Source: Verrucomicrobiota bacterium (lineage in GTDB: Bacteria; Verrucomicrobiota; Verrucomicrobiia; Verrucomicrobiales; DEV007). From it: DNA of 64,000 nt. Each line of letters begins with the position of its first letter. The first letter of the stretch is position 1. Of the stretch, positions 43,770-46,493 are shown in pieces. A program made the position numbers and the translations under genes. The notes under the pieces were generated by a model that saw only the letters and a program-made list of their open reading frames with translations, had not been told where the DNA came from and did not search any database. The stretch covers positions 1 through 64,000 of the forward strand of contig JAGWVU010000012.1 in assembly GCA_018970725.1 (NCBI GenBank). Direction: 5' to 3'.

Positions 43770-46493
43770 CTATTTCGTGTGGAATTCCTTGCTGCTGACG
43801 AGCGCGTGAATGAACTCGCGCATCGCGAGGTCTTTCTTGCTGGCCTGGGTGATGAGGTCGTCGATCAACGGCTCGTCGCAGAAGCCGATGGGGCGGCCTA
43901 AAGCGAACTCGATCAAGGCCTCGCTGAAGCTGCGGGCGAAGGCGTCGGACTTGGTGTCGATGATGTCGCGGAGGGAGAAGAAGTCGGTGAAGGACGGGCC
44001 TTTGTGGAAGGCGGAGGCGGGGTCGATGGGCCAGCGTTTGGTGCTCTTGGGGTCGGGCTTGCCGTTGGCATCGAGCGCGGTGTAGCTTTCCTCGGTGCGC
44101 CATTGGCCGGCGGCGTCGAAGTTTTCCAAACCGAAGCCGATCGGATCGATCTTGCGATGGCAGCTGGCGCACTGCGGGTCCTCCTGATGGGCGAGCAATC
44201 GCTCCTTCGTGGTGAGCACCTTGCCGGCGAGTCGCGTGATGGCGGGCACGTTGGCAGGCGCGGGCGGTGGTGGATCGTGGAGGAGCTTGCGCAGCACCCA
44301 GGCACCGCGCTCGACGGGGCTGGTACGCTCGCCATTGCCGCCCATAAAATGAATGGCCGCCATGCCGAGCAGACCACCACGCGGCGAGTCCTTCGGCAGC
44401 GACACCTTCTCATAGCCGTCGCCCTTCACGCCCGGGATGCCGTAGTAGTGGGCAAGCACGCGGTTGATGACGACGTAGTCGGCTTTGAGCAAATCACGCA
44501 GGCTGGCGTTGTGTTTGAGAATGTGCGCGATGGTCTCGTGGATCTCGCCTTTCGCCGCGACCTTCGTGCCGGTGTCAAAACGCGGATACAGCGCGCGATT
44601 CACCTCGAAGAAGTCGATGCGATCCAATCCGAGCCACTGATGCACAAACGCCGTCAAAAAACCCTCCGAACGCGGATCATCGAGCAGGCGGTTGGTTTGT
44701 GCGGCAAGCACTTCGGGCTTCGAGAGGTCACTTTTCCGCAGCTCGGCATCCGGTGGCGCACTCCAGAGGAAATAAGCGAGACGAATCGCGAGTTCGGGGC
44801 CAGACAGAGTCTTCTGCTTCTCATCTTTTACCCCTAACTTTTCACCAGCCTCCTCTTTTGGTAAAAGATCCGGGGTGAAAGATGGGGAACCGGATTCTGC
44901 CAGGTAGAGGAACATCGGCGAGGCGAGCACGACGGAGAGCGTCTCCTTCAACGCGGCCACGGGCTTGTCACCAGCTTTGCGGCGGGCGTCGTAGAGGCGC
45001 ATCAAGCGATCCACATACTCCGCAGGAGGCGGCGTGCCGCGAAAGGCCTCCGTGGCGAAGCGCTCGAAGGCTGCACGCAGTTCGACAGCGGCGGGAGCGG
45101 GTGACTTGTCGTCGAGCGGCAGCTTCAAGGCTGCAAACCCCGGCGGCACGGGCTTCGTGGCATTCGGCACGCGCTCGATCTCGATCCAGTCCACCCACAG
45201 CACCAGCTCGGGGCCGATGCCGTTGCGCTTCACGGCCTCGGCGCGTTTGCGATTCCCTTCTTCGTTTGTGTCCCAACTGCCTTTTTCGCGGAGGAAGAGC
45301 GAGCGGTTTTCACGAGTGAGGTTGCCTCGCGTCAACGTGAGCGGGATCTCGATGGTTTGCGGATTTTCCATCGTGCCGGTAATCTCGAACGTGTTCAATA
45401 CCTTGCCTGTGCGGGCATGAATGCCGAAATCGAGGAATCGACGCTCCACTGGCGCGTCCTTCACCGCCGCGGATCGCACGCGGACGATGTAATCGCCCAC
45501 CGGCCAGTCAAAGGGCACGAGCAGCTCGATGTAGTTGACGTTCAGCTCCGACGGATGCCGCGTCTGCACGCCGAGATAAGCACCGCGATCCACGCCGGGC
45601 ATGCCGATGTAATACTCGTGATACTTCAGCCAACCTGCGCCAAGCGAATCGTTCGCCAGGTCGGCATCGTTCTCGCCTTTCTTATCAAAGCCAAATGTCC
45701 GCGGATTCGGCGCACCGGGGATGCGTGCCCACTCGCGACGGAGGCGCGATCCATTGTTGTTCACCTCGGCGCGGATCTTCTCGACGATTTCTTTGTTCTC
45801 CGGCTTCCTAGCGGCTTCATCGACCGCATTCACCCACTTCTGCGCCCGCTCGCGGGCATCGATTTGATACTTCACGAAGTCGCGGACCTTCGGCGTCGTC
45901 GTCTCGCCTTCGTAATGCAGTTTCTTCGTCACGCTCGCCGCGGTTTGCCACGCAAACGCCTCCTCCAGCGCCTCGCGACCGAGCGCCTGATACTGCTCGA
46001 TCTGGTTCGCCGACATGAAGAGATTCGAGCCCACGGTATCAAAGGCCCCCGAGCCACCATCCGGCGGCAACTCGGCCACATTGATCTCGACGCCGAGTAG
46101 CTCGCGCAGCGTGTTCTTGTATTCCCGCCGATTCAGCCGCCGCATCGTGATGACGCCCTTCTGGTCGCCCAGAGTCCGCCGGGCCGCGACCATCACATTC
46201 GCCAGATCGTCGAGGAAATCGGCCTTTGCGGCACTTGCCGGCTGTTTTTCATCTGTCGGCGGCATGTCGCCCGAATTCAACGCATTCAGCACCTTCTGCC
46301 ACTTCTCGGCGACCTCGACACTCGTGATCGAAAGCGGCAGATCATCCACGCGGAACTTCCCTTTCTGCTTCTCCGGCCCGTGGCAACTCACGCAGTGCTC
46401 TTTGAAAAGAGCGCGGTGTTTCTCCGGCATCGCCGGATCGGCGGCGAGAAGGAGGGAAGGAGCAAGGAAGAGCCAAAGAAAGCGCGTCATCAT
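43770..46493 (-). CDS. PSCyt/DUF1587-DUF1595-DUF1592-DUF1588-DUF1585 secreted cytochrome protein
   Basis: A 907-residue exported protein. It has a signal peptide ([17 protein letters not shown]) and a haem domain with CVSCH (residues 35-39, [16 protein letters not shown]). DUF1587 follows ([18 protein letters not shown]), then a central carbohydrate-binding-like region, DUF1595 ([18 protein letters not shown]), DUF1592 ([19 protein letters not shown]), DUF1588 ([15 protein letters not shown]) and DUF1585, with a second CxxCH in [19 protein letters not shown]. The linker before DUF1592 contains a lysine/glutamate-rich insert encoded by an imperfect palindrome (44822-44884). It is followed after 6 bases by its DUF1552 partner and preceded by a cytochrome-c-like remnant. 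Confidence 0.92.
44822..44884. repeat. imperfect palindrome inserted in frame in the DUF1592 gene
   Basis: Arm 44822-44846 (CATCTTTTACCCC...) and arm 44860-44884 (...GGGGTGAAAGATG) match as inverted repeats in 19 of 25 positions, with 13 bases between them. The stretch is AT-richer than its surroundings. Read on the minus strand it encodes the linker residues between DUF1595 and DUF1592 ([22 protein letters not shown]), core [15 protein letters not shown]. The length of 63 bases keeps the frame. This looks like a mobile palindromic element tolerated inside a coding region. Confidence 0.6.

Follow-up and report, generated by a model that had tools for sequence, protein, structure and literature searches.

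The analysed window, a 64,000-nucleotide stretch of a Verrucomicrobiota draft genome, carries on its minus strand (43770..46493) a gene for a planctomycete-type cytochrome of 907 amino acids with the domains PSCyt1, DUF1587, DUF1595, DUF1592, DUF1588 and DUF1585. Its reading frame remains open across a 63-bp imperfect palindrome (44822..44884) of the sequence CATCTTTTACCCCTAACTTTTCACC-AGCCTCCTCTTTT-GGTAAAAGATCCGGGGTGAAAGATG, in which 25-base arms match at 19 positions around a 13-base spacer. The first arm (44822..44846), reading GGTGAAAAGTTAGGGGTAAAAGATG on the minus strand, and the second arm (44860..44884, plus strand, GGTAAAAGATCCGGGGTGAAAGATG) each deviate from the motif of the GGTAAAAGNTTNGGGGTAAAAGAT family by 2 mismatches in 24 bases, while the spacer (44847..44859) reads AGCCTCCTCTTTT, or AAAAGAGGAGGCT on the minus strand, and the outer ends of the palindrome are CATC and GATG. 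The segment contributes 20 residues in minus-strand translation at approximately residues 537–557 of the protein, between the Pfam domains PSD5/DUF1595 (472–533) and PSD4/DUF1592 (563–686), and has a GC content of 44% compared with 62% for the whole window. The inverted repeat, its AT-richness and its in-frame position between two domains of a cytochrome gene had all been put forward in a preliminary description of this DNA and were reproduced here.

Considered by itself, the palindrome is no rarer than chance would have it in 64 kb: inverted repeats of such quality occurred in order-1 simulations (n = 40) with a mean of 1.3 overlapping matches per 64-kb window, and 19 of the 40 simulations contained at least one. 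Its significance derives from recurrence in the genome, as a search with the arm GGTAAAAGNTTNGGGGTAAAAGAT allowing up to three mismatches returned 12 matches in the source draft genome, compared with 0 for a reversed-pattern control, copy counts across this genome being those of pattern searches. The corresponding loci are the window site and three more, located on contigs C28, C44 and C56.

Alignment with DUF1592 homologues, a comparison that the preliminary description had pointed to, revealed that the segment is absent from close orthologues. The orthologues of the host gene in three genomes (G078, 79% identical; G107, 75%; G038, 68%) lack exactly these 20 residues, which led us to conclude that the segment is an insertion, and roughly 20 more distant homologues lack it as well, the protein running straight on to the DEK residues that follow. 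At the DNA level, the alignment with the orthologues gives a clean net insertion of 60 bp or 20 codons, so that the in-frame insertion proposed earlier stands, while its size of 21 codons needs correction to 20. The same insert is found at the same site in another DUF1592 lineage, represented by a metagenome-assembled genome (MAG) labelled Prosthecobacter debontii (L056) and a Verrucomicrobiaceae MAG (L057), with a near-identical spacer. Between the window gene and these two genes, the insert DNA is approximately 83% identical, whereas the flanks mostly reach 50–70%. We rejected conversion over a long tract by an L056-like donor gene, given that identity is not raised outside the insert. The shared site may go back to two separate insertions or to the transfer of a short segment from one paralogue to another, and the number of independent insertions at this DUF1592 site is uncertain, since the site is also filled in that second lineage, a point that counts against the explanation favored below.

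That the segment might simply be a linker which evolved in the DUF1592 protein and happens to be palindromic could be argued from the expected occurrence of about one such palindrome per window and from the similar peptide that L056 and L057 have there. However, non-coding loci also carry the DNA arms, the segment is missing altogether from orthologues far closer than L056, and the insert is far better conserved towards L056 than are its flanks. Recurrence and empty orthologous sites thus refute this reading, to which we assign next to no credence. The palindrome belongs to a repeated family and was inserted in frame, in agreement with the earlier proposal of a mobile palindrome tolerated in coding sequence, as further genomic copies exist and the orthologous sites are empty; neither outcome that the preliminary description had named as a refutation thus occurred. 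The copy in the coding gene would persist because every frame of the reverse arm is open, the forward arm has just one frame without stops (AGKRLGVKD-type) and the site is a linker; coding copies would survive only where that frame coincides with the one of the gene and the insertion falls in a tolerant linker.

When 84,980 species genomes were scanned for the exact motif, 25 stretches emerged, all in records named as, or members of, Verrucomicrobiota. The intergenic CATCTTTTACCCC palindromes that the preliminary description had mentioned from environmental bacteria are real, the exact motif occurring in Verrucomicrobiota records only. Among the genomes so detected, 15 Verrucomicrobiota genomes other than the source genome have 2 to approximately 80 arm matches each (controls 0–1). 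Almost all of the nearest relatives of the source genome are devoid of it, and its distribution is thus sporadic. A canonical copy spans 63–73 bp in the arrangement GCT-GGTAAAAGRTTNGGGGTAAAAGATT-loop-AATCTTTTACCCCNAAYCTTTTACC-AGC, with ends of the form (G)GCT-GGTAAAAG..CTTTTACC-AGC(C); each arm consists of two iterations of a word of about 13 bp, and the arms are mutually inverted. The window copy and several others show the opposite, inside-out arm order (A'..A). Most copies are intergenic and lie outside long open frames, and further candidates for in-gene copies (L055, L086, L060, L048, L045, L015, L046 and L088) were not counted as coding because no domain spans the palindrome. No clear target-site duplication was detected among 18 palindromes, and none is evident at the window insertion. 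Tandem arrangements occur as well: on contig C28 of the source genome (48650-48850; L015), a 64-bp unit with a single arm (CAATCTTTTACCCCCAATCTTTTACCAGGGCCACC...) is repeated about 2.5 times in tandem.

The positions of the copies, often between co-directional genes, just past a stop or ahead of a start codon, together with the good pairing of the arms as RNA (approximately −25 kcal/mol), would also be compatible with an element acting at the RNA level, comparable to the intervening sequences of 23S rRNA, in which the palindrome would function as an mRNA hairpin, for processing or for termination, and would have spread incidentally. The copy in the DUF1592 gene is translated through in frame, however, no Rfam family matched the palindrome at threshold (the sole match below threshold being a microRNA model that tracks the hairpin), and such a role would leave the empty sites and the deletion derivatives described below without explanation. 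We therefore regard an RNA-level element as very improbable.

A link between the palindrome and GxxExxY nuclease genes, which was absent from the preliminary description, emerged from the flanks of a 261-codon gene. At six loci (L039, L042, L044, L050, L056 and L129), the palindrome or its arms lie approximately 10–40 bp from both ends of this gene, which is complete in all of them except L129, where it is frameshifted. The encoded long-form protein of 261 aa exceeds both curated cut-offs of the family, with 53 bits against 35 for TIGR04256 (GxxExxY) and 56 against 22 for PF13366 (PDDEXK_3), and residues D75, E85, K87, Q99 and Y103 are invariant in 28 of 28 long-form proteins. The pattern D..ExK..QxxxY is that of RecB/Cas4-like nucleases, and the protein belongs to the PD-(D/E)XK nuclease superfamily. 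No sequence relative was found in the PDB, nor any relative of the long form among viral contigs and plasmids, and an AlphaFold model of the long-form protein computed from 5 sequences reached a pLDDT of 49. GxxExxY genes are present in 41 of 57 genomes of the order.

Beside 23 of the 28 complete GxxExxY genes, hairpins within 130 bp score at or above the 99th percentile of the controls (341 windows). For 29 long-form loci from the order, the score of the best inverted repeat between a locus's own upstream and downstream flanks averaged 19.8, compared with 9.1 for flanks taken from different loci, and a score of at least 12 was attained by 93% of the loci (27/29) versus 14% of cross-locus pairs. 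The flanking repeats are again two iterations of a word of about 10–13 bp, the letters of which vary by clade (GGCAGAATGATGG, GACAAAAAGATTGG, GGTAAAAGATTGG, GGCAAGAAGATTGG and others), and their similarity tracks protein identity (Mantel r 0.64; 0 of 2000 permutations). The long-form gene at L044, for example, has a palindrome of the GGTAAAAG type as its own, the GACAAAAAG type being foreign to it. Short-form GxxExxY genes of the same order (L234-L260) carry matching inverted repeats at 9 of 22 loci versus 1.9% of mismatched pairs, with ATCCGTGTTGATCCGTGTCCATCCGTGGT, AACCACAGAGACACAGAG and CGCTAATGGGACGCTGATGAGACGCTAAT as examples and repeat types including CCACGGAT, CCACAGAG, CGCAGAG and CGCTAAT.

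Several further features of these loci were observed. Five tandem words of the CCAATCTTTCTGACG type stand upstream of a truncated GxxExxY gene at L167, as if the iterated arm word had expanded. Long-form elements (L210/L214, L150-L179) are often situated between co-directional genes, right after a stop or before a start codon, and several of the neighboring genes belong to cytochrome/DUF1501-type operons. The gene order DUF1552-palindrome-GxxExxY-palindrome-DUF1592 is shared by L039, L050 and L056, and a palindrome occurs in frame at the extreme N-terminus of the DUF1592 gene in each of them (L056:5552-5744, L039:4540-4627 and L050:1645-1744). At L056, an ATG from which the cytochrome gene would start through the palindrome shares bases with the stop codon of GxxExxY (TCATGA), and the element may thereby give this gene a new N-terminus via translational coupling.

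In the source genome, the only complete long-form element is located on contig C34 (106916-107781; GxxExxY gene 106968-107747) and is flanked by a sister repeat, GACAAAAAGATTGGAGACAAAAA / TTTCTGTCTCCAATCTTTTTGTC, between what we take, by resemblance, to be a DUF1553-type stop and a DUF1501-type start. This element is common to the source genome and G107, and it is absent from the congeners G001 and G002, which hold only a short spacer there and are 93% identical in the gene next to the site. A GxxExxY gene of the GGTAAAAG type was not found in the source assembly, which counts against the favored explanation. Two contigs are broken off precisely within tandem GGTAAAAG palindromes, C44 at its end (L016), after a DUF1552-like 3' end, and C56 at its start (L017), before a DUF1592-type start. 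By analogy with L039 and L050, a GxxExxY element may sit unassembled between these two contigs.

Precise presence or absence of the element between genes, the flanking of the gene by two palindrome copies and its assignment to the PD-(D/E)XK superfamily would likewise suit a homing or addiction system. In this case GxxExxY would be a selfish gene for a nuclease, the palindromes would serve it as sites of recognition or protection, and solo copies would be scars or protected sites that were not transposed. We consider such a system improbable, given that the solo copies in G069 amount to about 80 matches at unrelated places and that internal-deletion derivatives look like transposed non-autonomous copies. 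In G069, at least 6 copies keep the 3' end of the GxxExxY gene and both terminal repeats and lack the middle, in the manner of non-autonomous derivatives.

The same genome contains a 154-bp MITE with the ends AGGCACTTGCAAAACC / GGTTTTGCAAGTGGCTC and an inside-out arm pair at its center (copies at L127, L128, L130, L132, L136, L140-L143, L145 and L146). Its 5-bp target-site duplications (45 of 55 positions match; 0 of 5000 shuffles) indicate that another, classical transposase can also carry the arms, which again counts against the favored explanation. Together with the presence of Y1 genes in 15 of 15 genomes with the palindrome, this MITE raises the alternative that the palindrome is moved by another enzyme, either RAYT/Y1 or a DDE transposase, and that the GxxExxY genes are passengers or controlled by the flanking hairpins. 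However, none of 32 Y1/RAYT loci (PF01797) has an arm within approximately 1.5 kb, and a RAYT/Y1 transposase was rejected as the mobilizer on these grounds. The clade-specific match between repeats and GxxExxY phylogeny would moreover be hard to obtain from passengers, and the window insertion differs from the MITE in having no evident duplication. Movement by another enzyme is thus unlikely, albeit the most serious of the alternatives.

Based on the palindrome family, its insertion into the DUF1592 gene, the flanking of GxxExxY genes by palindromes, the co-variation of the two, the presence or absence of elements and the deletion derivatives, all directly observed, we favor, with a probability of roughly 60%, a mobile system similar to REP/RAYT or to MITEs in which the nuclease GxxExxY takes the place of the transposase, the copy in the window being a minimal member that is not autonomous. 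The GxxExxY gene product probably moves the palindromes, by analogy with REPs that flank transposase genes. A full element comprises palindrome, GxxExxY gene (261 aa) and palindrome, and solo palindromes and internally deleted copies would derive from such elements and spread in trans. From the sequences, we infer that GxxExxY would recognize the arms, either as duplex or as extruded hairpin, and would cut its palindrome substrate, whereupon host repair or replication would insert the palindrome and leave no clear target duplication.

This favored system resembles REP/REPIN sequences with their RAYT (TnpA-REP), REPtrons and TIRtrons in its dispersed palindromes, present mostly as intergenic solo copies, and in an enzyme gene that has copies of the palindrome on either side, with clade-specific pairing of repeat and enzyme, here GxxExxY and not Y1. 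REPs are characterized by a GTAG tag and a RAYT enzyme (PMC10969869, PMC3733652). In contrast, the GTAG terminal tetranucleotide is missing here, the arms are two direct iterations of a word of about 13 bases, and the enzyme is a PD-(D/E)XK GxxExxY protein instead of a Y1 HUH transposase, with no examined Y1 gene flanked by arms. Rickettsia palindromic elements, to which the preliminary description had compared the insertion, are in-frame elements of about 150 bp with a CGTC tag at one end (PMC10969869, PMC3733652), and the CGTC class apparently has no dedicated transposase (PMC3733652). Both are palindromic, repeated and translated in frame within a protein gene; however, at approximately 63 bp, without the CGTC tag, mostly intergenic where those elements are frequent in genes, in Verrucomicrobiota and with a candidate enzyme, the present family does not support kinship. 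With MITEs, it shares short inverted repeats in common with a larger coding element (the full elements among L039-L056), internal-deletion derivatives (G069) and high copy numbers in some genomes, but it differs in being a palindrome without clear target duplication and in a candidate enzyme that is not a DDE transposase. For the GxxExxY family itself, no role in mobile elements and no tie of GxxExxY, TIGR04256 or PF13366 to repeats was found in the open-access literature searched, nor did any paper give the arm sequence in connection with bacterial repeats.

Intergenic repeats of the CCACGGAT, CCACAGAG and CGCTAAT types are common in environmental genomes. A wider and more tentative proposal, which we hold to be possible though somewhat doubtful, is that GxxExxY proteins mobilize a large and as yet undescribed class of elements whose palindromic ends are clade-specific and built from iterated words, these repeats included, with the window copy as a representative retained in the form of a protein linker. 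To our knowledge, short palindromes that enter genes in frame are known mainly from Rickettsia, with no enzyme known to move them, and GxxExxY is a very common but unexplained family. A palindrome family of similar behavior, linked through co-variation of sequence to a single conserved nuclease-like gene, makes the question of mobility testable and, if the connection is true, would provide a function for GxxExxY and a possible origin of many repeats that are abundant in environmental genomes.
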